A stretch of 64,000 nucleotides of DNA from Mytilinidion resinicola (lineage: Eukaryota; Ascomycota; Dothideomycetes; Mytilinidiales; Mytilinidiaceae), in contig NW_022985439.1 in assembly GCF_010093595.1 (NCBI RefSeq), forward strand, positions 1,808,512-1,872,511. Reading direction: 5' to 3'. Positions 1 through 62,523 of this stretch are shown one piece after another (the first letter of the stretch is position 1; every line of letters begins with the position of its first letter). The notes under the pieces are model-generated. The model had not been told where the DNA came from, searched no databases, and was given only the letters and a program-made list of their open reading frames with translations. Made by a program: the position numbers and the translations under genes.

Positions 1-11
1 GCGAAACAGCA

Positions 12-293
12 ATGTCAAACGCCGTGCTGCTTGCAAGCGAAAATGAGAAGCTGCGCATAGAGAATCAGCGCCAGAAACAAAAGAAGGCAAGGAAGCGCAC
101 GTATATAGCTAGAAAGGGTATTCTATCAGGTGAAGAAGCAGCCGATCGTGCACAACCTGTACAGGAAGGGGCAGCAGAGGAGGCAGCAGAGCCACCGGCC
201 GAGCGGCCACAGCGAGCAAAACCTAGGTGCAGCATGTGCGAATCAACAGAACACAATGCACGTACGTGCCCTAGGCGGCAGGCAGCTAGCTAG
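12..293 (+). pseudogene. 3' tail of a pogo/Fot-type DDE transposase (partial)
   Basis: This 93-codon open stretch is rich in Lys, Arg, Glu and Gln and ends in a CCHC zinc knuckle (C-x2-C-x4-H-x4-C, CSMCESTEHNARTC) just before the stop. A charged linker followed by such a knuckle is the usual C-terminus of fungal pogo/Fot1-like DDE transposases. The catalytic domain would lie to the left of the window, so whether the element is intact cannot be judged. No terminal inverted repeat was recognised between the stop and about 900. The frame may continue upstream of base 12, so the ATG at 12 is not necessarily the start. Family assignment rests on tail composition and the knuckle only. Confidence 0.5.
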
Positions 294-923
294 TATATAG
301 CTGCATCAAATATATTTGTTCGTGGTGGAGTAATTCGGAATATTTGGCCTCGGTAGCGTGGTTGGGTGGGCCACTAGCTTGTGCGGGCCACTAACTTGTG
401 GATTACGTTATACTTACTGTAACATACTATGGTGGGGCTCTTAAACAACAACAAGACGCCCCTCGACACCAACATGCTTTAGAAGTCTACAGTGTCTCAT
501 TATAGACATCCGTACCCTCTTCTGTTATTACTGTTACGGCTTCAATGCATCAATAAAAGTCGGGGGAAAACAGGTCAATCTGTGTACTCTCCTGTGCCAT
601 CGTCTCCCGAGTTCACCAGTTGGTCAAACTACTGAATTTCCATCTCTAATAAGTCACCATGAGGCACCACAAGCAGTGGCAAGAGAGAGAGTACGGATCT
701 TAACGACGAGTTACTGTAACTACCTCAAGTGCTCACGAGACTTTATCTTTTAACCTGGATCCTAATCTTCGTGAATGACGTTTGAATCATACCAATCAGC
801 CACAAACCCCCTTTGTAATAGTCTGTCTCTTCAATAAAAGATACAGATTACCTCACCCTGTAGATCAGACGTCAGGAACGTAACTGAGTGTGCGTGCACA
901 GCTATCATGAACCAGAAGGGTCT
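294..923. other. non-coding stretch after transposase tail
   Basis: No convincing reading frame is seen. It may include the 3' flank of the transposon. No inverted terminal repeat was recognised. Confidence 0.4.
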
Positions 924-44428: not shown

Positions 44429-45507
44429 GTTTGAGATGGTTTTGTAGGATTAAAATGTTGAGAAAAGGAATGGATTTCTGGAAGCAATAGGTATATAGAT
44501 TGAGCTGTGGGTTGTTCAACTCTAGACAAAGGGGTTTGTTCGACCTCGGACAACGACATTGTTCAAAGTTCAGCTTCGCTATGAATCTCATTATGGAGAA
44601 ACGGGTTCCTAGTTCCTGGGTAAATGAGCATTGCTATTCCTTATTAGTATTGACATGATGCGGGCATATGTAGGTTCACACTGTAGAGACTCGCAGCTAG
44701 ACTTGAGTGACCAAAATGCAGTCCATAATTTTGTGGAGTAAATGTACCGAAGGGGGTGAATGAATGCGGTTTGTTTCAAAATTCAGAGTAAGACGTGACG
44801 GAGTACGTATTCTTAGCCAGCTAGCCTACGGAGTATGGTACGGTTAGCTCGGCTACCTTGATATAGAACACGGTTCCTATACTTAGCCCTCACAGTTCTA
44901 CGGTACGGTTTCGTAAGCCTTCACACACACAGAGTATATATACGGCGTACGTAGCCTACATAGATGCTCATCCAATACATCACTTACCTCGTTCAATGCA
45001 TTGTTTCACCTCCATCCTCAAGACGCATAGACTTAAATATGTTATTATAGAAAGAGCTTATGTGGTAGAGCTTAGGAAACAAGGGGAGTCGGTCAGGGAG
45101 TAAGAAATGCTGTCTGGTAGTAACAAATTGAACAACCACTCTAGTAACAAACACCTTTTCATTTCGCTCTCACCGAGAGTCAAGCAGGTGATGCAGCTTC
45201 ACCTGGTCCAAGGGTGGGGCGGAGGGATGGTAATCCACAAGCTACGAGAGGTTGAAAAGTACAGGTTGCAATCCCGGGAATAAGAGACGATGGTGTTGGT
45301 GAACGTCCAAGTGTCGTCAACGCCGATGACGGACGCCTTGCCGACTACCCGATTGCGCTATCCCACTCTTGGAGAGTTTCCGCCGTGGAACTTGCCCACA
45401 TAAAGCTTAGACATTCCCGACGATAGCCCCTCTAAATTGAACCATACAAGTATCGGATGATAGTCCTTACTCCCGACTCTCAACGACTTCAATCTCAACC
45501 TTCCAAA
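44429..45507. other. intergenic, no gene seen
   Basis: About 1.1 kb, AT-rich in the first half. Upstream of the MFS gene; an in-frame ATG at 45457 is a possible earlier start for it. Confidence 0.5.
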
Positions 45508-49191: not shown

Positions 49192-50068
49192 TTGAACTTC
49201 TATGACCTGTTCATTCTCTGCTCCTCTAGCAGTCATCTCACCACCACGCAGGATGCGCCTTTCTATCAATATTTGCTCAAACACTCTGTAACAAAAGATC
49301 ATACGATCACTAAACCTCTCATTTCTCCTCATTACCTTCGTTCTCGTGATTTTTCTCAATTTTTATCGTCTACGACTGCCACCGCCATCTCAACCTTCTC
49401 GGATGATAGCTGTAAGAAATCTTATAAGAATCTGGACGGCCCTAATGGTTATCCGGACGGGCTATGTACAGAACTGTCAAGCCAAGGAAACTTCCAAAGC
49501 TTCATGGTAGTGGGAGAAAATCCAGGATGCTCAGGTATGAAATTTTAACCAACAGTTTAATGTCGATATCTGAATTTATTCAAGTCACCATTTACGGCAA
49601 AGATGCCGATGGGAATCTCCTTGTTCGGCAACCGTATTAGAGATTGGGACTCTAGCAACATGCTATAACGCTTCATGGGTGCATTAAAGCATCGACGGCT
49701 GCTTGCCCCCTAGCAGCTTCTCTTCCTCCACCACGATGTCAATTCCCACACGCAGTGTCACTAACCCTTCAACAACATCCGCAACATCTTATATATTACC
49801 CCTCCCGTCATCATCGTCACCACCAAAGAAGACAGTTTCAACTGGAGTGATAGTCGGAGCTATCGTCGGCGGAGTCGCGTTACTAGTCACCATACTTGGA
49901 GTCACGACCTTTCGTCTCTTCCGTCATCGTAAACCACGTCAACGAGAGAACTCACACGAGTTATCAGACTCTGGTGTTCCCAAAATGCCGTCAAAAGACC
50001 AGAAGCTCGAGATGTATGCCTCACATGGAGCCGTTGAGATGGGTCGGAATAGCATGTATATGAGCTGA
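49192..50068 (+). pseudogene. Membrane-anchored wall-associated protein, 5' end damaged
   Basis: Segments 49192-49534, 49585-49633 and 49690-50068 can be joined in phase (GTATGA and GTATTA donors). The encoded parts are a Cys-containing ectodomain (DDSCKKSYKNLDGPNGYPDG, then FMVVGENPGCS/VTIYGKDADG), a Ser/Thr/Pro stalk, one membrane helix (GVIVGAIVGGVALLVTILGV) and a short basic tail, typical of fungal single-pass surface proteins. No ATG opens the first segment; a hydrophobic signal-like stretch (LSFLLITFVLVIFLNF) lies in another frame at 49316-49363. In a different frame the second intron reads as a natural continuation (CSATVLEIGTLATCYNASWV) ending in TAA. A decayed gene is therefore likely. 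Confidence 0.45.
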
Positions 50069-50362
50069 TGAAGGAAGGATCATTACAGGGTGCCGGCGGA
50101 AAGAGCGATCAAATGTACAGCTGAGTCTCGGACATGCTTACTGCCAGGTTTACTACCCTAATGGTCGGCTCGCCTATGCATCAGCTTGTCTCTATTTCTG
50201 CAAACGAATTCCGTGAAACATTGAGCCCTGTCGCACTCGTAGAAAAGAGCGGAAATTAGTAGTTTCTTGTGAACATTTCACTCCTGCATGCTGCGTCTCA
50301 TGCCCATTCACCACTTTGAGCTCCTGCTAACGAGCCTGAGGTGGGCCATTCAAATTCTCTCC
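50069..50362. other. short intergenic interval
   Basis: No gene seen between convergent genes. Confidence 0.4.
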
Positions 50363-51688
50363 TCAAGACTCCGCAAGATGGTAATACACAGCCGCCAATG
50401 CGGCCGATAGCGTGGCAACCATCCACTGCCCGATGCCAAATCCAGACTCTTGTGTCTTCATCGCCAACGCCACGACGACCGATACAACGAAACTAAGGAC
50501 CAGGATGACGCAGAGACATAGACTTAGTAGCGGCTTGTTCGGTCCTTCGATGATATGAACGCCCCAGCCTAGTGTCAGCTCGTTCGGTACGCTCTGTTTC
50601 AGAATGCTCGAATGCAACTTCTTCGGCATGCGGTCGAAGAACAACCGACTCTGGCTTCCAGCGTGCTGCTCGTGGTTCCAGAAATAGTGGAAGAATGTTC
50701 TATAGTCAATCGGTGGTAGCGGGTCTAGCGGGCATTCACGGTAGTGGTAATGTTGCTCCTTAACCTTTTGGTGAGGCGGGATAGCCATCGGCTTATCATA
50801 CACACCTACGCGGTGGCTGTCAACGACGCCGAAGCGCACGAATTGGATGTCAACTGGTTTGAAGAGGAAGCCAAATCGGCGGCTGCGGCGGAGGGAGTGG
50901 TAGCGAGCGTGGACTAAGGCGAAGAAGGCACTGTCAGTCTGGACTTCGGTGATGCCGTTGGTTGTTCTGGAGGTTAAGGGGATCTCGCCAAGGGTGATGC
51001 GGAGGGTGCCGGTGTTGACGCATAATTCAAAAAAGCGGTATGTGGTTTGGGTGTTGCCGGGGTCGTTGAAGTTGATGTCTTGGGGTAGTGGATAGACGTT
51101 CTGGGTGCTCGAATTGGAATATCCAGGGCCCCCTAACGTCTGGCCGGGGTTTTGCTGTTGGGAACTAACGCCCGTGGATCCGGAACTCGCAGGCAATGAT
51201 ACGGTATTGTTGATTGCACTGGGCCCATCTTGAAGCGTTACGCCCACCAGGGACGGCATAGTCCGGTCGTGATCTCTTTCCTTTCTCTCCCTATCTAGCT
51301 CAGATCCATCCGGCTTGTGTTTTTCCAGTGCTTTGAACCAATGGTGTAATGTCTCGTTAATCCATCCAACATCTAGCTTCTGTCCTGCGTCTAAATCAGG
51401 CGGCGCATAACTGCCGCGCGTAGCCGTGCTTTCTTCGAGACGCGGCCAAGTATTTTCCGTTAGTTCCTCGTACGCGGATGTTTTGGCTTTCTCAAGCTTC
51501 GTCGCGGGAACTGTTGCCACCACGGTACCTGTTTCTAGACTCCCGGTATATTGCCAAAGGCCCCTTTTTACCGTCTGCAAACTCATGTGGTATTCTTTTA
51601 CCGAGACCTGGCTCAAGTGCTCTATGCGGAGCTGCCGTCTGAAGAACTCTAGCGCATGGATATCATCACACTTGTAGTCGCCGTACAT
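50363..51688 (-). CDS. Hypothetical protein with two C-terminal membrane helices
   Basis: A single-exon 441-residue frame from the ATG at 51688 (MYGDYKCDDIHALEFFRRQL). The first two-thirds are soluble and polar, with a Ser/Gln-rich linker. IQFVRFGVVDSHRVGVYDKP and FFHYFWNHEQHAGSQSRLFF look conserved. The end carries two hydrophobic helices (LCLCVILVLSFVVSVVVALA; WMVATLSAALAAVYYHLA). There is no signal peptide, so it is probably tail-anchored. Proteins of this shape are common in dothideomycetes; I know of no function. Confidence 0.7.
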   Translation of the reverse strand: MYGDYKCDDIHALEFFRRQLRIEHLSQVSVKEYHMSLQTVKRGLWQYTGSLETGTVVATVPATKLEKAKTSAYEELTENTWPRLEESTATRGSYAPPDLDAGQKLDVGWINETLHHWFKALEKHKPDGSELDRERKERDHDRTMPSLVGVTLQDGPSAINNTVSLPASSGSTGVSSQQQNPGQTLGGPGYSNSSTQNVYPLPQDINFNDPGNTQTTYRFFELCVNTGTLRITLGEIPLTSRTTNGITEVQTDSAFFALVHARYHSLRRSRRFGFLFKPVDIQFVRFGVVDSHRVGVYDKPMAIPPHQKVKEQHYHYRECPLDPLPPIDYRTFFHYFWNHEQHAGSQSRLFFDRMPKKLHSSILKQSVPNELTLGWGVHIIEGPNKPLLSLCLCVILVLSFVVSVVVALAMKTQESGFGIGQWMVATLSAALAAVYYHLAES

Positions 51689-51808
51689 TGCCTCGCCACA
51701 GCTCTGAGAAAAGCAGAAGATTATTAGCAGGTATACTCAGAATCAAGGACCTAAAGTAAATCCCCGTCGCTAATGCAGTAACTAAGGTTGCTGAGTTCAA
51801 GAATGGCT

Positions 51809-52682
51809 CTAGTATGTACATAGAGGTCTCGTTGGCTTCCGGAATTTACGTAGAAATTGGGACTTCATAAAAGTGTCACGACTTACACATGTCCACTCAA
51901 GCCGCTCATAACCCAACTTTACCCGCGGACGTAAAATTACTTTGAGTCCAGCAATAAGGCGAGCGAAAAGCCTCAGAGGCAGAGGTAGTCTGGATAACCC
52001 AGCATTGGCGGACCTTGGCGGGGGCGGAGTACAAGACGGCGAGACAATTTTGTCTTTTTCATTGACGTCTGACGTCTCTCTAGATTCCTCTTTGTGAGGG
52101 ACCTCTATTATTTTTTCTGGCTCGCCATCGTACAGCACCTCTATCGTTTCTTCCAGTTCCTCTCCGCATGGTGCTTCTCTAACTTCCGCAGGTGGAGCCC
52201 TATATGGGGTCAAGGGCACCCAAGGGTCGTTTCTTTTGTCCGACATGTCCTCGATTTCCTGGAAGCTGTCTCCGATGGCATTGCTATCGCGAACTTCCTC
52301 GTTACCAGAATGGAAACGGTTAGGCGGTGTTGGAGGTGGCTCCCTTGAAGGGCTCTCCAGTTCATTTTCGTCAAAAATGGATCCCGCTGGAGATATTTCA
52401 TGGTCCTCGAATACTGAAGACGCTTCGTCGTTCTCAAACACTGGGTGCGAGTGGTCTTGCACTTGCTGCATTCTAAGCTCATTGGCTTTGAGCCTTTTAC
52501 CAATCTCCTCAGCCTCCCGGGAGAAATCACCTGAAGTATCCCAAATCAGTCGGAAAGATCTGTCCTTACTTTGAACCTTGCACTTTTTATAGAAGACTTG
52601 AAGCTCATCTAGAATCCTTTCATGTTCGAAGTATATTTCAATATGAAGATCTCGCTCCCTTTCAGAGAAGCTGCCATCGTGT
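51809..52682 (-). CDS. Probable 3' exon of the composite regulator, or separate gene
   Basis: A frame open from a good acceptor (TTTTCAG at 52683) to a stop at 51809. The first ~65 residues are a predicted coiled coil (HIEIYFEHERILDELQVFYK), followed by an acidic disordered stretch and a basic C-terminus (LPLPLRLFARLIAGLKVIL). The only early in-frame ATG is at 52471, well inside the frame, so it is more likely an exon than a free-standing gene. Linking it in phase to the frame above needs a GC donor (AAAAG/GCTACT at 52735), because that frame otherwise stops at 52726. Confidence 0.5.
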
Positions 52683-52725
52683 CTGAAAAGTTTTTTTCTT
52701 GGTAGTTAAGAAAAGACTCGCTAAA

Positions 52726-54932
52726 CTAAAGTAGCCTTTTAACGCTTTCCAGTTCTTTGGGAGAGTCCTTTAGCTTTTCGCTCATAATATAGGTGTTTTC
52801 ATATGCTGTCCTGACCTTGAAAACGGAGAGGTTGAGGCCAAGAGATGCGTGCTTCAATATATTAAAAGCGGGAGAGCGGGGCTGGCTAAACATAATTTTT
52901 CGAAACGTGTTTGTTGCATCCTTCGTTTGCAAGAGGCCATGGGAGCGAGGAGGCTCATTCGGCGCCTCTTCATCTTGCAGCCCCACGCTCTTCATTGGTG
53001 ATATCGCAGGAGGTGATCTTTCATAGCTGAAGGCTTGGTCTCTCGGCGTTGGCTCGGCGCTCGTGATGTCCCCGCTTCCAATCGATGCGATGGATTCACC
53101 CTCACCCTGTGTGTCTAATTTGGGTTGGCTCGCGTCTTCATCATCCTCTTGAGTGATACGTTTGCCCCTGGATCTACCTCTAGAGAAATTCAAGAACTGT
53201 TTTGGAGCAAACGGGCCTTCAGAGAGCTCGCTGACCTGGGAAGGCTTCGGTGTCTGAGATATCTCGACGTCATCTTCTCCCGCCATTGTCCCCACGAAGC
53301 ATTTGCCTAGCATTTTTTCGAGGTTGACCCAAGGATGCATTCCCATGAATAATTTCTCGCAATCTTTGCCAGCTGCCCTCCCTAGCTCTAATTCACCACC
53401 AGGATGGAAGGGAAAATACGGCGTGATGTTGTAAACTTTCCCTTGAAAAGAAGACCATGCCGGTCTTCCTTCAGTGCCGTTGTTATGTTTCAGCTGCTTA
53501 GGAGTAACTCGAAGGACGGAAGGAACACCCGATAAGTTTTCGCCAGAGTTCGTCACATTTACCCAGTCCAGTGGCCCTTTTTGCTCTTTAAGTTGGACCT
53601 TGGCTTCCCGTAGGCCGTGTTTCTTTGCAGGATTCGATGAGAGTGCGTTTCGATTTTTCCAGACGTCTGATTTCCGGGTCTGCGCGTCTTCCTTTACGTC
53701 GAAATGAGCACTGGGGAAAGTAGCCGTGTTATTTGCAGTAGATACAGGAACTGGATCGGGAGGGGCAACAGAAGACTTATTTGGCGCCGGCACATGTTTA
53801 TACACACAGTCGTAAGAACTGTCCTTGCAAAATGCACACGGCCTCTGCTCGTCACATGGCTGTTTCCGTGCGCGACAGTTGTTACACGCCTATGACTCAG
53901 TTAGAAAGAGAAGACAGAGCAGTACCGTCTAGAGCGCGTACCTGAGTTGCTCGCACTTGCTTTCGTTTCATGGCACCATACTGGGACCCAACCGGCCCAT
54001 ATGAGGCGGACTGGTTGTACTGGCTGCTACTGCTGGGCGGATACATATGGTCAGAAGACATGGGCTGCGGGGCGTACTGTTCCTGCGGGCTGGCAATGGT
54101 GTCGCCATTTGGCAAGCCAGCAGACATCCCGTTGAGAGACATGCCGTGCAGAGGCATTCCGTCGGAAGGGAGGAGGTTGGGTTGCTGGCGGGAATCCTGT
54201 CTTTCGGGAAGCTGAGAGATAGTTTCAACACTGTCATCCAAGAATCCGCCCTGAGGTGGCGCTTGAGAGTTGTGGACCTCTGATTCTTGATTGTCTTTGA
54301 TTCTTCGCTGGACTGGGCGTGTTTCTGCCTCGCGCCGCTTTGCGTCGTCTTCCCAAAGGAAGAACCTGCACTCGTGCATAAAACAGGTGTAATACCCGCG
54401 CCCTCTTTGCGTCGATTGCAATGAAGCAACTAAGTGGCGGGCGGGCTTACGGGGACTACAGTTACCTTAGGCAATATTAGCTACAAGCATAAGGGGGTAG
54501 ATGCAGTACTTACATTTCCACACTCCATATTCGAATAGTCCTTCCTGGTTAAGACTTGAAGCCGATGTCAGCTCCTGATAACGCTTGTCATGCGCACCAA
54601 GACTCACTCAGTTTCATTGATGATGAGAATACCAGCAGCTGGTCCTGGTGGGTGTTGAGCCACCTGAAGTGGGTCCGTGGTGGCTGTGATGTGCCAACCA
54701 GGTTGATATTCAGCTTTGTTGCGCAATGATTCAGAGCTAGATCCAGCGCGGCGCTCGATATCTTCGAGCCTTTTCTTTAAAGTCTTGCCTGCGGACTGTG
54801 AGCTGCTGAATCCCGGTATTTACGACGGGCAATTACCTACGGTAGTTGCGTTGAGCAATGCGGTGCTGAATTCGTCTCCGTTCAGCCAGATCCGAGATCT
54901 TGGTGAATGATATTGTTGATGTATACTCCGCA
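52726..54932 (-). CDS. Composite regulator: bZIP basic region, GRF zinc finger, Zn2Cys6 cluster, cytochrome b5-like haem domain
   Basis: Exons 54932-54841, 54788-54608, 54554-54514, 54465-53942 and 53889-52726 join in phase, about 666 residues without the unknown 5' exon. In order: a bZIP-like basic region (ERRRIQHRIAQRNYRK), a short Pro/Ala linker, a GRF zinc finger split over exons 3-4 (WKCNCSPRKPARH, GRGYYTC, HECRFFLW), a Gln/Ser/Met linker, a complete Zn2Cys6 cluster (ACNNCRARKQPC, RPCAFCKDSSYDC), and a cytochrome b5-like domain with both haem histidines (FHPGGELELGRAAGKD at 53406 and MHPWVN at 53337). The last two lie in one uninterrupted exon. The first intron donors and the third are canonical (GTAGGT, GTGAGT with a GCTGAC branch). 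The 5' start and the C-terminus are unresolved. Confidence 0.6.
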
Positions 54933-54959
54933 CTGTAAGAGGGCAAGGAAGCTTGCTCA

Positions 54960-55260
54960 TGGTGGGTACTTTTGGATGATGTATCAGCCCCCAATTTTGT
55001 TCATGATCTCGGCGCCTTGGACTTCCTCAGCAGAACTCACTCGCTGTCCTCAATTACCGGGATATCCTCAGCAAATGTTGGTGAGTGCTGAGCCGCCCAG
55101 ATGGGTTCCATGACGGTTATGATAACTAGGGTCGATCTTCAGCCTTGTGGCGAAATTGCTTCGGTGATGAGATAATAATATCGACGAGACTATCCGAGTG
55201 TGAAGAGAGTATGCAAGAGCTGATGAACTGCTAAATTACAGCACACTCTTAGCCGCTTTC
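54960..55260 (-). pseudogene. degenerate tandem copy of the bZIP second exon
   Basis: The minus-strand stretch around 55141 (CACAAGGCTGAAGATCGACC, then CATGGAACCCATCTGGG and GCGAGTGAGTTCTG) parallels 54712 (AACAAAGCTGAATATCAACC, GACCCACTTCAGGTGG, CTGAGTGAGTCTTG) about 430 bases apart. The copy has in-frame stops, so it is a dead partial duplication. Confidence 0.55.
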
Positions 55261-55890
55261 TCCAGAATTGCAGGTGTCAGAGTATGTAGCCTGTGTCCAA
55301 GGCTGAAACGATGAGGCTCATAAATCCTAATCAGACGATCAACAGGAATGATACGGTGGTTTAGGTCCTGTAATCACGAAGAGGAAAGTTGATTGTATAG
55401 ACTACAGCACTCTGAGCCCGAAGAATGTTCATTCTATCAGAAAGCAGGCGGGTCGTGTTCAGGCTCGTTCGCCCCCGAGGCTGAGATGAAGGTTATTCTC
55501 ACGTGTGTGAAGCGCTTACCCTGGTACGTCCTTGGCGCTACATCGGGAGTGATGATTGGTTAGATTTCCTAGGCTGTATGGAACACAGGAAGTAGTTGAG
55601 CGATTAGTCTGCTTGTAGTTCTTAGATTCAAGTCTTAGAAGCCCGAGTTTTATAGATCGAAAAGTCCCTGGAAAAGTTTTGCTGAACGAACTTGGCCTGT
55701 TTTGCCAAAGTGACCACTGCAAACCCCAAGTACGTGGGGCTTCCTGAAACCATTTCTCATACATATACAAGGGGGCACTATGTCTCTAGTATCAATTCTG
55801 TATCGTTTGGGACCTAAACGCCACCTCCAGGAACCGAAGCATCCCAACCATAAGCCCGTATCCAGAACCCAATATCAACCACATTCTTAA
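55261..55890. other. intergenic, no gene seen
   Basis: Upstream flank of the composite regulator. Frames such as 55516-55770 (-) lack protein-like pattern. Confidence 0.5.
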
Positions 55891-56878
55891 TCATCCTTGC
55901 GCCTTCCCATCACTATTGGCTCCGCCGCCAGTCACACTAGCCACAAACTCATTGTATCGGAATACCTCCCCTCGCCCTCCTTGCCCGCCAAGTCCCATTC
56001 CCTTCCCTCCTTTGCTGAACGCCTTCCGACCACTGAACCCCTCCACCACCTTATCAATCTCTCTCTCGCTCAGCTTGCTCTCGCCGGGCTCAGGCGCCGT
56101 ATGTAACAGAGCATCCTTCAACTCCGCCAGGTCGATCTGACCCGAGTCGTCGTCATCGAATGCGGAGAATGCCGCATTAAGCTCGGACGGATGCGACAAT
56201 GGTGCGAGTAATCCAGCCAGTGTGTTCAAGTATGTTGCCAGGTTCATCGTTTGGAATCCGGCGGGAAAGTATGCAGATAATGAGGCAGGCGAGCTGTCCA
56301 GTCCCAGCTGGTTCAGCATCTCGGCGACGTCGGCTGCGGCGATGGTGCCAGTGTTGGAGCGATCGAGCACGCTGAAGGATTCGCGCATGCTATGGAGGAG
56401 AGGGGGTGGTATTTTGGTCATTGCGTCGCCGGAGCTGGCGGTACGCGTGAGGGGTACGGGGCGTGAAGACGATGCTCTTGGTGAGTCCGTGTCGTCGTAT
56501 GAGGGGAGAGGGTCAGTTGGCCGGAGCGTGGCAGCTGTGGCGCTGGAACGCGTTGGCGATGTCGGTGGTTCTGGTGTAGCGGTCGTCCCGCGGGTTGTGA
56601 GCCATGTTGGCGGGGCGTTGCTGGTTGCGGTTGGGCGAAGGGACGCTTGTGAGATTTTCTCCGGCGATAGATTGGAAGGAGTGGAGGGTTTGAGGGGAGA
56701 GCTGGTAGGCGTTGTGGCTCTGACGGTTGCTGGAGAGGTGAGAGGGGAGTTTGGCCGTCTGAAGGGTGATGTGCGCGGGCTATTGAAGGAGAGTGGAGAG
56801 GGCTTGTATGGGTTTGGAGTGGCAGACTGGAATTGTGAGCGCACGGAAGCAAATCCTGGCAATTTTCATACATACCAT
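55891..56878 (-). CDS. EF-hand protein (calmodulin / myosin light chain-like) with disordered N-terminus
   Basis: The ATG (56878-56876) forms a three-base coding exon followed by a 49-base intron (GTATGT...CCAG); exon 2 is 56826-55891, total 312 residues, starting MSATPNPYKPSPLSFNS. The first ~140 residues are Ser/Pro/Thr-rich and disordered. EF-hand 1 (SFSVLDRSNTGTIAAADVAE) has a weak loop and EF-hand 2 (FDDDDSGQIDLAEL) a canonical 12-residue Ca2+ loop. The layout resembles fungal proteins with a calmodulin-like C-terminus that may bind myosin or other IQ partners. Function is not established. Confidence 0.85.
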
Positions 56879-57323
56879 GACTATTTATCGTGTAGTAGAA
56901 GTGCTGTGAAGTGTGACGAATGATCCTAATCGCGTAGAGCCTGTGGTGTTGATGTTTGGCCTACTTGGAATTGGCGCGGCAACCGCCGAGGGCACGTGAC
57001 CTGGGCGTCGAAATAAAGTTGTTAGCGTGCTGGCTTCTACGCAAGGCCATGCGCAACGCAGTGCTCGGGGGTCTCTCCGCAGTGCAGCAATCCGATGCAC
57101 GAGAGGGGACGCTACCAGGCTACTCGGCTCCTGAAATCACCCAATTCGATTCCTCCACCCTCGTCAATTATGCCTTGACTCCCTCCTTTCGCTCTACAGC
57201 AACCCTATACCTATTTGCGCCATCCCTATCCGGCAGGACACCCAGGGCGCATTCCTCCATCCCTCAAGATCCTGGTGATCGTCTTCCAGGGACGGACTTG
57301 ACCCTGATATTGGATAGACCCGA

Positions 57324-59934
57324 ATGGCTTCAGCGATGGCCCAACGCCCGTCTGTCAATGGCGTTCCCTCTGCCCAACACGTCCTCCAGCGCCAATCGTC
57401 CCTTTCCTCCTTCCCTCAGCCTCAATCCCGCTCGCCGTCGTCCCAATCTACGCGAAATACCCGCCCTGGGCGCTCTCCGCAGCCGCCGACTGTCAGAGAG
57501 TCAGGAGGCTCCTCTGAATCCTCAGCAAGCCTCTCCCACGAATCCTCCATGTCCGTCCTACCAAGTGCCCCGAAACGCAGATTGCGCTCGCAATACCCCG
57601 CCGAGTCATCCGAGAATCATGTCGAGTACATTCTGGTCGCATCGTTTGACATTGACCATGGATCCGTCATGGAGCACCAATACCCAGCTCCCATCAGTGG
57701 AGACGAGCACATGTTAGCTGAATTGATGTTGCCAGATCAAACCCACATGCGCAGTCAGGATTGGACAATCTTCTTCCTGCATAAGGACACGAGCGCAGAG
57801 GAAGAGGCCAGGGAAGAGCGGAGAGAGCGGAGAAGACAGAGGCGGAGACGGAAGGAGGGTCTGGATGGTGACGATCCAGCGACGAATGGAGGCGAGGCCA
57901 ACGAGGATATGGAGGGTCTAGATGATGATGATTTCGACACCGAAGACGAAGAGGACGAAGAGGATGACGGCATTGAGGGGCCTCCCCTCGTATATGTGTT
58001 GAATCTTGTTAATACCAAGCAAGATATCACGGTTAAAAGGTAAGCTTACAGCCCTTCACTTAGAGACAATAGCCGGCTGATCCCTATCAAAGAGGCGCAA
58101 TTGTCAAGGCTATGGCCATATGTACGCGGCATTCCTTTTTACATATTTACAAGGTATGGACCATAGGCCAATGTATTGTCGTTGCCATATTGATCATGTT
58201 TAGCCTCTTCTCCTCTTGGCGCTCGAGGAGTACTTCCGTGTTCCTGTTCCTGAGACGCTCGCTTCTCTATATAACGCCGTGAATTCGATGGACCTCTCCC
58301 TGATGCCAAAGCTATCGCCCTTAGAGGGTTTCATTCTTCAAGCTAGCGACGCCAAAGACATGTTCGTAGAGAAGTTTGACCAGATGATCAAACAGCGTAT
58401 GATTGAGGATGCTGAACGAAATTCAGTACCTTCCTCATCAGGGTCGAACATGTCTCCAGCACGGCACAACGCTACCAAATACGTTCTTCCACGAGATACT
58501 CACGAGTTCGACTCGCGTGTGCATTATAACGGTATTCCCGTACCGATCAAAGTGCCAACAGCCATCAGCCCCGAGACCGTTGGCGACTTCTCTCTGATTA
58601 AGCTGATTCAGACTTTCTCGACACCACATGCCACTTCTCCGCAGCCATTCGCCCTTCATCCCCATCTCACTACGAGCGGTGCCTACACTCACCCCATAAT
58701 TGTTCTCGTCAATGCGCTACTTACTCAAAAACGTATCGTCTTTCTCGGTCACAACAGGCCATCTGGAGAGGTAGCCGAGGCTGTACTGGCTGCATGTGCA
58801 CTCGCTTCTGGTGGCCAGCTCCGAGGCTTCACTCGGCACGCGTTTCCATACACTGACCTTACCAAGATCGACGATCTACTGAAAGTTCCTGGCTTTATCG
58901 CTGGTGTAACAAATCAAATCTTCACGCATAAAGTAGAATGGTGGGACTTGCTTTGTGACCTTCCCACAGGTCGTATGAAGATCAGTAGCCGCATTGAAGC
59001 CGCTCCTGTCTCCGAAGGGGTACAATTCTTCCAACAACAGCAAGCTGGGCTTGGAGGCAACCCAAGCATTGGCGCACAGATCGCCAGTGCAGTGACAGCA
59101 GGCGAAGGTAAGGGCGCTGTCGACTTGACTGGCGATAATGCCTTCATGGATGGCTTGTTGCAAGCAATTGCCAACCGTCACGGCGAGGCTGCCATCCGAA
59201 GTAAATGGCGTTTCTGGGTCCTCAAGTTTACGCGCTTAGCTGCTGCATTCGAGGAACTCGTATACGGCGCGTCCGCATTGTACATCGGACCGCACGAGAC
59301 CGAGGACGGAGCAGGCGCATATGGCGTATCCGGACACGGCTACGTCTGGAACGACGACATATCCCGCATGAAAGAGCTAGCTGCGAACACCCATCGTATC
59401 GAAGGATGGCGGGTTACTCGGAGCTATTTCACATTCATCCAAGATCTAGCAAGGCGGTGGGAGAAGCGACCTGTGCGCGGGATCGACCTACAACATCAGC
59501 ACGATCGACTTCGTTGCGCAAGGCTTAGTCACGACCAAAGTGCCGCCATCTACCTCGCTTTCGCTCAGGCTGTGGAAGAGGCCGGTCCTAGCTACTCGCC
59601 GTCTGACTCGATGGCGGATCTTTCATCCGGCGTCAACAGTATCAGTATGGATGCGAGTGGTGAGTTGTCGCCGCGGAGACCACCGAGCGAGCAGCTGCAG
59701 TACGACACCATTCTGCAACTGCTGACAGTCGTCCCGGAGACGAACAGCGGCCTGTTCTACATTTCCTTAGGACTATTCCACCCACGGCCAGACGTACGCA
59801 TCGCAGTTGTCAAGCTGCTGGAGCGTATCGTGGAGCATCCTGCAGGCCGACATTTCTGGGCTAGCCTAGGTCGATTCGCAAAGCTAGCGTTTTTCAGAGT
59901 AAAGAGAGAGGAGGAGACTGGAGCGGGGAGGTGA
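57324..59934 (+). CDS. AFI1: AFI1/SPA-domain polarity protein (DENN-like)
   Basis: Three exons, 57324-58039, 58093-58153 and 58204-59934, join in phase to 835 residues. The AFI1 N-terminal domain opens at [21 protein letters not shown] charged loop ([14 protein letters not shown]; acidic run) follows, then [20 protein letters not shown]. The SPA (stabilisation of polarity axis) half contains [40 protein letters not shown] and [19 protein letters not shown]. Afi1 is a DENN-related partner of the GTPase Arf3 and helps keep polarity landmarks at growth sites; in hyphae a role in tip growth is inferred. Divergent from the EF-hand gene. Confidence 0.88.
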
Positions 59935-60417: not shown

Positions 60418-61056
60418 TCAAGCACTGGGGAACCAGGTCTCACGGTGACTCTGCAACATCGCAATCTCCTTCACCAAGCGTCCCATACGGACACCAGTCT
60501 CGTCGCGCACGTTGAAGGGGAAGCTGGAGATATAGTGCACTTCGATTTTCGTGCACGGCGGACTGGCCACCTGCATATCCTGCCACGTCGCCCGGTGATC
60601 GGTGTCGGCGCCAGGTGTAGCGAGGCCGATCATCGGCATGGTGAACTCGAACGGTCGGATCGCTCTCAATTCGATAGTGGAGGTATCTTGAGCACGAGGA
60701 TTGCGAATTTGGTTTCTCCTGAAACCCGGCGGGTCTTCGACTTCGCTACTACGCGGCTTCAGGAAGGGATTGAGATGCTTGGCCGTGATGACCTTGACGA
60801 CTTGAGGCGGATCATACACCCGACCATTCCAGCCGGCGTAAGTGACCTCTTCTTCTTCGTATATGGCTGGTGGCGAGGACGGGTGGCGAGGCGTGAGCCA
60901 CATAGCTTGCTGGAGTGGAGAGGAGTTATCAATGGCTTCCTTCCACTGCTTGCAGACGCGCTGAGCTTGGAAGATATTCTGAATTGGAAGCTTGAGGAGG
61001 ATGAATTCGAGCAGCTCGGTGACGCCGAGGACGCGTTTGGCTGCTGACGCCTCCAT
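60418..61056 (-). CDS. F-box protein, paralogue A
   Basis: A 212-residue single-exon frame. The N-terminus is an F-box (TELLEFILLKLPIQNIFQAQ, then RVCKQWKEAIDNSSPLQQAM) that would bind Skp1 in an SCF ubiquitin ligase. The rest is unique to this subfamily: TWQDMQVASPPCTKIEVHY and RDETGVRMGRLVKEIAML. It lies head to head with a paralogue at 61696. Target is unknown. Confidence 0.85.
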   Translation of the reverse strand: MEASAAKRVLGVTELLEFILLKLPIQNIFQAQRVCKQWKEAIDNSSPLQQAMWLTPRHPSSPPAIYEEEEVTYAGWNGRVYDPPQVVKVITAKHLNPFLKPRSSEVEDPPGFRRNQIRNPRAQDTSTIELRAIRPFEFTMPMIGLATPGADTDHRATWQDMQVASPPCTKIEVHYISSFPFNVRDETGVRMGRLVKEIAMLQSHRETWFPSA

Positions 61057-61695
61057 TTTTTCTATTATGGAGGTGGTATGGCGACTATGGATGAGGAAGC
61101 TGGATGGGCGTTGTGAGCTAGGATTGTTGTGGTTTTAAGGTGAGTTCGGTCCGTTATTGTACCGAGATGTCACGGGCTGGCCCAAGACACCTACCAAAAC
61201 ATTCACTAAGACGTGTCTCAGGAAGAACACCAAGACAGGGATTCACCTATAGTATAGCTATAAACTAGCCCCACGGCCCTCCACAGCTCTTTATAGTACA
61301 TTAATTTATTTACTTCAACTCCTTAAACCTATGCCCATGATACGAGAGGATCATGCTAATTTGACTTGATATGGTCCCATTCACCGACCGTTCTTGGCCG
61401 AGGATACTCCGTTATAATTCTCTTGATCTAGTGATAGGCAAGTTCAGGCTATAAAAGCATATACACTAGCACTGCAGGGCGTGATGATGGAAACAAAAAC
61501 TCTAAAAAGCGCTTCTAGTGAACAGCGGCTAAGAGCGGAAGTTGTAGCAGAATGCCACCATGACGAAAGGTGAATGGAAGTGCATAGATTCAAGTCAAAC
61601 ACAAAAACCCCTCCGTCATTGAAGAACCTAGAACCTCACCGATAACAACCACGATCGCAGCTCACAACATCCACTGCCGCCATCTCACCCCGAAA
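61057..61695. promoter_or_regulatory. bidirectional promoter between two paralogous F-box genes
   Basis: 639 bases separate the two start codons. No TATA element was recognised. Both genes start with nearly the same codons, which suggests an inverted duplication with the promoter between the copies. Confidence 0.5.
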
Positions 61696-62523
61696 ATGGA
61701 GGCGTCGGCGACCAGCCGTGCCCTCGGTATCACCGAGCTTCTTGAGCTTGTCCTTCTCGAGCTTCCTCAACGAGACCTCTACCAGGCCCAGCGCATCTGC
61801 AAAGGCTGGAAAACCGTCATTTCCAACTCCTCCCCCATCCAAGAAGTCATGTGGCTCTCGCCCGCCAGTCCCTCCTCACCACCCGCCAAGTACGAAAAGA
61901 CTGAGACCCTCCTCGACTATCCCCTCGTCATCAAATACCTCTCCACCTCCCACCTGAACCCCCTTTTCCACGGCCGCTACGACCCCGATCCTTCCCTATC
62001 CGGACCGACTTGGAAGGTAGAACCAGGCAACAACGATGACGATGGCGACATAATCCACGTGGAATCTCTAAACAAGATCCTACCTTTCTTACCGACGACC
62101 GACTATGGAGCATCCAATGTCAACTGCAAGGCTACGTGGGAGCAAATGCAGGTAGCGAGCCCGCCTTGCAAGGCCATCCAGATAGCGAGGATCTGGGAAG
62201 CTCCTCTGGTCCTTCGAGATGAGACTGGGGTCCGCATGGGACAGTTGGTGAGGGTGATTGCGTCGTTGGAGCGGGCCCACCGTGCTGCAGAGGCTGCAGC
62301 GAGGGCTAGAGCAGATGCAAGAGCCGAAGAGGAACGAATCGCAGCGCGTACGAGGGGTCGTAGGACTGGTGTGTATTTTCCTGTGTATTCGCCTAGGAGC
62401 CCCACCTCCTATTCGGGTTATCAGCCTCACTCGCCTAAGAGAGGGGGAGGTAAAGCTGCAAAACCAGGTGGTCGCTGTGGGGACGAAGTGGATGGCCCGC
62501 CGGGCAATCCGTGGGTTGAGTGA
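61696..62523 (+). CDS. F-box protein, paralogue B
   Basis: A 275-residue single-exon frame and clear paralogue of the gene at 60418-61056: same start (MEASA), F-box (TELLELVLLELPQRDLYQAQ) and the shared downstream block TWEQMQVASPPCKAIQIAR and RDETGVRMGQLVRVIASLE. It differs by a longer C-terminus: an Ala/Arg/Glu helix, then a Ser/Pro/Tyr/Gly-rich tail ending GPPGNPWVE. Probably an SCF adaptor. Confidence 0.85.
   Translation: MEASATSRALGITELLELVLLELPQRDLYQAQRICKGWKTVISNSSPIQEVMWLSPASPSSPPAKYEKTETLLDYPLVIKYLSTSHLNPLFHGRYDPDPSLSGPTWKVEPGNNDDDGDIIHVESLNKILPFLPTTDYGASNVNCKATWEQMQVASPPCKAIQIARIWEAPLVLRDETGVRMGQLVRVIASLERAHRAAEAAARARADARAEEERIAARTRGRRTGVYFPVYSPRSPTSYSGYQPHSPKRGGGKAAKPGGRCGDEVDGPPGNPWVE

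Follow-up and report, generated by a model that had tools for sequence, protein, structure and literature searches.

What kind of gene joins several DNA-binding modules to a cytochrome b5 domain? On the minus strand of a 64,000-nucleotide stretch of the Mytilinidion resinicola genome (the window), a preliminary description recognized a Zn2Cys6 (C6) cluster fused to a b5-like domain behind GRF and bZIP-type modules, and proposed that the product is a haem- or redox-responsive DNA-binding regulator. Our analysis leads to another answer, which we consider moderately probable as a whole, a grading that reflects its repeated-swapping part: that the window contains the variable middle of a fast-changing locus, where host-gene fragments are repeatedly exchanged and may serve as baits, rather than a dedicated regulator.

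Results

A six-exon gene model joins four modules

An open chain of six exons (55111-52726, minus strand) runs from an ATG at 55111 to a TAG at 52726 and encodes 702 residues, along which a bZIP-like region is followed by a GRF finger, a complete Zn2Cys6 cluster and a cytochrome b5 domain. Cluster and b5 domain lie, as first described, within one uninterrupted exon (53889-52726, minus strand), which is open for 387 codons and in which Pfam finds both Zn_clus and Cyt-b5. The upstream exons indeed join in phase, through five GT-AG introns, and introns 2, 4 and 5 occupy the intron positions of related genes (P0122 among those compared). Exon 2 probably starts at 54968 instead of 54932, a shift made because the residues SLPSYSAEY are then common to a counterpart in Lophium mytilinum. 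The span originally given, 52726-54932, contains the modules as claimed but is too short, with the ATG at 55111 and the Lophium counterpart continuing into the region of the neighbouring gene P0176 (52471-50363). The model comprises:

55041-55111, minus strand: exon 1, with the ATG and an N-terminus common to Lophium
54841-54968, minus strand: exon 2, bZIP-type basic region, start shifted from 54932 after the Lophium comparison
54608-54788, minus strand: exon 3, remainder of the bZIP-type region and a linker
54514-54554, minus strand: exon 4, in which the GRF piece begins
53942-54465, minus strand: exon 5, GRF finger and the stretch preceding the C6 cluster
52726-53889, minus strand: exon 6, C6 cluster, b5 domain and a unique tail ending in TAG

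The tail after the b5 part had no other match in a search of the M. resinicola genome and, when joined to the next frame, no match in Pfam.

A reading artefact is rejected by the open frame, the GT-AG introns and the agreement of intron positions with those of the source genes. Assembly error is unlikely, the pieces being diverged copies (17-31% DNA difference) and not identical joins. Read-through of two adjacent genes is likewise unlikely as an origin of the C6 and b5 combination, for which there is one exon, with no in-frame ATG between the two parts and with a C6 copy that enters former intron sequence.

The modules are copies of fragments of other host genes

When the M. resinicola genome was searched with 4.9 kb of window DNA, three matches were returned, namely the locus itself, a region of contig C35 (84%) and a region of contig C5 (83%); the same search found no second copy of the mosaic. 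The adjacent 8.7 kb upstream, searched likewise as a control, gave no match beyond itself and a repeated inverted element. As read from these alignments, the window gene is a mosaic of DNA-level copies from three other host genes (bZIP on C5, C6 on C35 and b5 on C3), together with a GRF piece related to a fourth:

54732-54904, minus strand: bZIP fragment including intron 2; its 173 bp are 83% identical in DNA to C5:1207852-1208024
54328-54543, minus strand: GRF fragment with intron 4, related to the C17:1003915 region (protein 49% over 63 columns)
53760-54189, minus strand: C6 fragment, which includes intron 5 and is about 83% identical in DNA to the C35 gene, its last bases aligning to that gene's next intron
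53251-53655, minus strand: b5 fragment, 62% identical to P0002 in protein over 135 columns; DNA 69% over 53575-53253 (323 bp)

All pieces lie in sense and in frame, and the bZIP and C6 copies retain introns. The fragments end inside exons, and their origin therefore looks like the copying of DNA pieces, not intron-to-intron exon shuffling.

The C6 piece is recognized by Pfam as Zn_clus above cut-off (E 8.3e-07, residues 1-31 of the exon 53889-52726 product). On C35 it matches the gene that encodes the C6 protein P0122, with about 404 columns aligned, intron 5 included (83-84% DNA identity). The cluster and the preceding stretch of the window gene are a copy of part of this Zn2Cys6 transcription factor gene of the same genome; unlike P0122, the window gene is without the rest of the 1122-residue factor. 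The two C6 parts differ at 10 of 37 residues, changes that need not all have occurred on the window side, and all six cysteines are kept. Moreover, the alignment runs past the source exon end into the C35 gene's intron, the GT of which is lost in the window, with the subsequent bases translated.

At window positions 53753-53766, bases that align to the intron of the C35 gene are read as coding, an apparent conversion of intron to exon.

The upstream GRF finger claimed earlier is supported, marginally, by a Pfam score of 26.5 against a cut-off of 25.9 bits in the joined protein (690 residues), and lies exactly at the cut-off in the single exon; by eye, its four zinc ligands are kept. The single further GRF match found in the M. 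resinicola genome, the C17 region, has its intron at the same position as the window piece, of which it appears to be a relative that need not be the direct source. Extending the GRF similarity into the adjacent linker was not accepted, since 71 of 500 shuffles aligned as well.

The bZIP-type basic region reported earlier stands as a matter of ancestry, its recognition resting on the DNA identity to the bZIP-type gene on C5, where the 173 aligned bp include an intron. It does not stand as a called domain: Pfam gives no bZIP match in this region even at E 10, a long leucine zipper is not seen by eye, and we do not assign the region to the bZIP family. A related Periconia protein, P0140, also misses the bZIP_1 cut-off (18.5 against 27.6 bits). 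The basic-region Asn, which is kept in both the C5 gene and Lophium and which we take to be an invariant bZIP residue, is His in the window protein.

The b5 piece is assigned to the cytochrome b5 family by its Pfam profile match (Cyt-b5, E 1e-18, residues 129-202 of the same exon product) and by both axial histidines. The latter, in the motifs HPGG and HPWV, are present as first reported and invariant in a 26-row alignment. An AlphaFold2 model of this part (mean pLDDT 82.0) matched solved b5 domains in a fold search, the best being the b5 domain of rice RLF (8tgb, E 2.8e-11), with 3lf5 also among the best. With both haem ligands kept and a b5 fold predicted, the modelled domain may still bind haem. 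By sequence and predicted fold it belongs with fungal b5 proteins of the P0002 kind and with the RLF and Ncb5or b5 domains in the PDB. P0002 itself (BDZ99DRAFT_408981) is encoded in M. resinicola on the same contig as the window (C3), 84 kb from the locus. In a b5 tree of 50 rows, the window domain is not securely placed, its long branch (0.49) arising from an open fork; extension of the b5 similarity into the adjacent linker was not accepted (26 of 500 shuffles were as good).

Two further b5 proteins drew attention in these comparisons. P0070 of Coniosporium apollinis (643 residues) has a long additional N-terminal part, which could mark a further fusion or the merging of two gene models, and P0077, filed under Persea americana, groups with fungal proteins in the b5 tree and may be a fungal sequence in a plant record.

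Repeats occur elsewhere in the window. Inverted copies of about 208 bp (73% identity) at 60851-61059 and 61693-61900, some 6 kb upstream of the gene and with relatives on C7, resemble the termini of a DNA transposon or foldback element. At 44794-45020, a sequence of some 226 bp is repeated, with at least 38 further genome matches at 94-98% identity, and the left end of the window (1-412) lies within a repeated element with at least about 40 matches, several at 99-100%.

The pieces differ in divergence and constraint

In every piece compared with its source (bZIP, C6 and b5), nonsynonymous divergence is below synonymous divergence, although pairwise values of this kind combine changes in the chimera with those in its constrained source gene. 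For the bZIP piece, dN is 0.063 and dS 0.57 (40 codons; dN equalled or exceeded dS in 0 of 1000 bootstraps), and for the C6 cluster with its preceding stretch the values are 0.10 and 0.28 (96 codons; 9 of 1000), a pairwise ratio of about 0.36 that is compatible with relaxed constraint. The b5 piece gives the clearest sign of constraint (pN 0.144, pS 0.893; 107 codons; 0 of 1000), and its pS equals the value from random codon choice (0.895, sd 0.066). Because synonymous change in the b5 piece is at this random level and dS is lower in the others, the pieces look unequal in age, with b5 the oldest, although the true b5 source may be a lost paralogue. An open frame with both histidines retained argues for selection, which has probably kept the b5 part.

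The combination of domains was not found among the database proteins listed

The preliminary description did not know the combination as a described architecture, and database searches agree with it. No listed match contains Zn_clus and Cyt-b5 in one protein, across three protein searches spanning candidate lengths of about 213-677, 380-1207 and 604-1921 residues. The best 120 of 208 matches in the first search each have Cyt-b5 and none has Zn_clus, so that the window b5 domain, fused behind a C6 cluster, differs from these relatives of the P0002 kind, which show Cyt-b5 only. None of the 57 matches in the second search has both domains, and none of the 12 in the third, where the scored candidates were the 7992 sharing most words, has Cyt-b5. 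Literature searches found no paper on a Zn2Cys6-cytochrome b5 fusion architecture; a narrow search on fungal NACHT proteins and allorecognition likewise found none, and broader ones gave no title describing such a fragment-swapping locus among the matches listed.

A Lophium counterpart has the same ends and a different middle

The counterpart in Lophium mytilinum, P0177 (BU16DRAFT_613580, 1117 aa), is an automatic gene model, and the comparison covers two species. At the N-terminus, the window protein and P0177 are identical at 60 of 86 positions (70%) up to the residues GSSSE, and at 54% over 120 columns; at the other end, a C-terminal module of 223 residues is 93% identical between M. resinicola and P0177. 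Orthology of the two genes is proposed from these shared ends.

Between them, Pfam finds GATA and RRM domains in P0177; GRF, C6 and b5 are absent. No match was found between the middles of the two proteins (best E 0.94). When the M. resinicola genome was searched with the first 732 residues of P0177, its middle resembled a GATA gene on C9 (76% over 104) and an RRM gene on C14 (77% over 100), and a third fragment resembled a C20 ORF in which Pfam finds nothing (46% over 50; the wider alignment was equalled by 0 of 500 shuffles). These three lookalikes are separate genes in M. resinicola, the genome searched; the pieces of P0177 itself would presumably derive from Lophium's own genes.

In the same search, only residues 18-72 of P0177 matched the window locus. 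This, with the unmatched middles, suggests that the bZIP piece probably predates the split between M. resinicola and Lophium, the remaining pieces having been exchanged or added separately.

The C-terminal module recurs with diverse partners

The Lophium gene extends into a region that is annotated in M. resinicola as a separate gene, P0176 (BDZ99DRAFT_191738, 641 aa; 52471 to 50363, minus strand):

51887-52471, minus strand: first annotated coding exon of P0176, the open frame itself extending back to 52705
50363-51703, minus strand: second annotated exon of P0176
50366-51034, minus strand: C-terminal module of 223 residues, 93% identical to that of Lophium, with two hydrophobic helices at its end in the model

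To connect the chimera to the following frame through an open junction, candidate introns of 40-200 nt are available, every one with a weak donor; the shortest extends from GTTTAG at 52726 to 52671. In M. resinicola, the chimera and P0176 could thus be a single gene, two genes or a broken one; the single-gene view is considered because Lophium's automatic gene model spans both halves.

The module is predicted as a mixed alpha/beta part followed by two C-terminal helices (mean pLDDT 78.6), which, their sequence being hydrophobic, may span a membrane. With P0176 as query, no PDB entry matched the module by sequence, and the best hit of a fold search had an E of 0.8. Ten other proteins carrying the module (P0178-P0187) have varied Pfam content: three have a kinase, and single proteins have HET with NACHT (P0184), ankyrin, NDT80, or Zn_clus with CorA. 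One more has a Zn_clus match below threshold, and the last two have no domain. The query that found them included the C6 region, so that Zn_clus members may be over-represented. By Pfam, neither NB-ARC nor NACHT was found in the 690-residue joined protein, P0176 or P0177.

Five further places in M. resinicola match the module (on C16, C30, C34, C37 and C42). Among the upstream frames scanned, those at C16, C30 and C42, IBR appears at C42 and ankyrin at C30, and nothing in two frames at C16. For the C16 paralogue, the one whose upstream part was searched, that part matched two neighbouring stretches at C23 and gave no sign of a mosaic; the window gene and its Lophium counterpart are accordingly the only genes for which a mosaic has been established.

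Two of these module carriers have partners of separate interest. P0187 from Pseudogymnoascus combines an NDT80/PhoG DNA-binding domain, another transcription-factor domain before the module, with the C-terminal module in one protein, and at C42:15900-23900 IBR half-RING frames lie upstream of a module copy, perhaps an E3 ligase fused to it.

Discussion

A locus that probably exchanges host-gene fragments

That fragments of host genes are swapped between fixed ends is, in our judgement, likely. Pieces of genes that encode nucleic-acid-binding and other proteins would be copied, together with their introns, in sense into the middle of the locus, most simply during break repair or else by ectopic recombination, and later replaced, so that the locus repeatedly gains and loses such pieces. 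The C-terminal module is the common part, and the fragments would therefore probably be displayed by a protein anchored through its hydrophobic helices. Parts of host nucleic-acid-binding proteins presented in this way would most simply be baits: a fixed module, exchanged host-derived pieces and a relative with HET and NACHT suggest recognition of attackers of host regulators. We put forward this bait function, argued by analogy, as a tentative proposal. Doubtful as yet, too, is its most specific form, a membrane-anchored fungal receptor locus outside the NLR family that would diversify by repeatedly copying host transcription-factor and RNA-binding fragments into mid-gene as baits against hostile proteins attacking those regulators.

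Known systems offer partial parallels. In PMC5819176, a major integration clade of grass NLRs is described in which homologous genes are fused to different domains from other host genes. The window locus is alike in that homologous genes carry different host-derived domains: between the window gene and P0177 (two species) the domains differ and the rest is conserved, and the domains are copied from other host genes (the C5, C35 and C3 copies). It differs in that no NB-ARC or LRR was found in the window gene and each gene has several short fragments; in addition, our comparison covers two fungal genera, and an immune role is a proposal. For Sordariales fungi, zinc-finger or kinase domains of NLRs have been proposed as integrated decoys (PMC12258605). 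The window's C-terminal module likewise occurs with HET and NACHT, in P0184; unlike those NLRs, the window gene and P0177 are without a nucleotide-binding domain.

Alternative explanations

A decaying or accidental chimera, made of chance fragments and lacking a selected function apart perhaps from its b5 part, is unlikely. It would fit the failure to find the fused protein among listed database matches, the stop at 52726 with onward links only through weak splice sites, and the wear in the bZIP and C6 parts; however, 702 codons remain open across six exons, dN is below dS in all three pieces, strongly so for b5, and Lophium has a comparable fragment-built middle.

The regulator first proposed, in which bZIP, GRF and C6 would bind nucleic acid and b5 would sense haem or redox state, appears quite improbable. 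The six cysteines of the C6 cluster, the GRF ligands and both b5 histidines are kept, and the b5 part has a predicted fold and is under constraint. Against this, the modules look like acquired fragments, and the Lophium counterpart has GATA and RRM instead of GRF, C6 and b5, so that the gene has no conserved role in haem sensing. Two of the DNA-binding modules also show wear: Zn_clus scores above cut-off with its six cysteines but differs from its source gene at more than a quarter of its residues, and the basic region has Asn replaced by His. The Lophium gene, moreover, includes the C-terminal hydrophobic module. It is the missing haem domain in the counterpart, together with the wear in bZIP and C6, that makes the regulator reading less likely.

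Capture and transport of the fragments to the locus by a transposon such as a Helitron is very unlikely: such elements do capture gene fragments, as reported for Helitrons in a fungus (PMC4289320), and positions 60851-61900 contain a repeated inverted element, but no strong inverted repeats surround the gene (the best within 50000-57500 is 28 nt at 75%) and the genome has no second mosaic copy.

Implications

In summary, the window gene encodes a protein put together from parts of several genes, parts that are seemingly unequal in age. If fragments are swapped while the ends stay fixed, the locus would be a fungal counterpart, outside the NLR family, of the integrated-domain loci of plants, and the swapped pieces would point to host regulators that rivals may attack.
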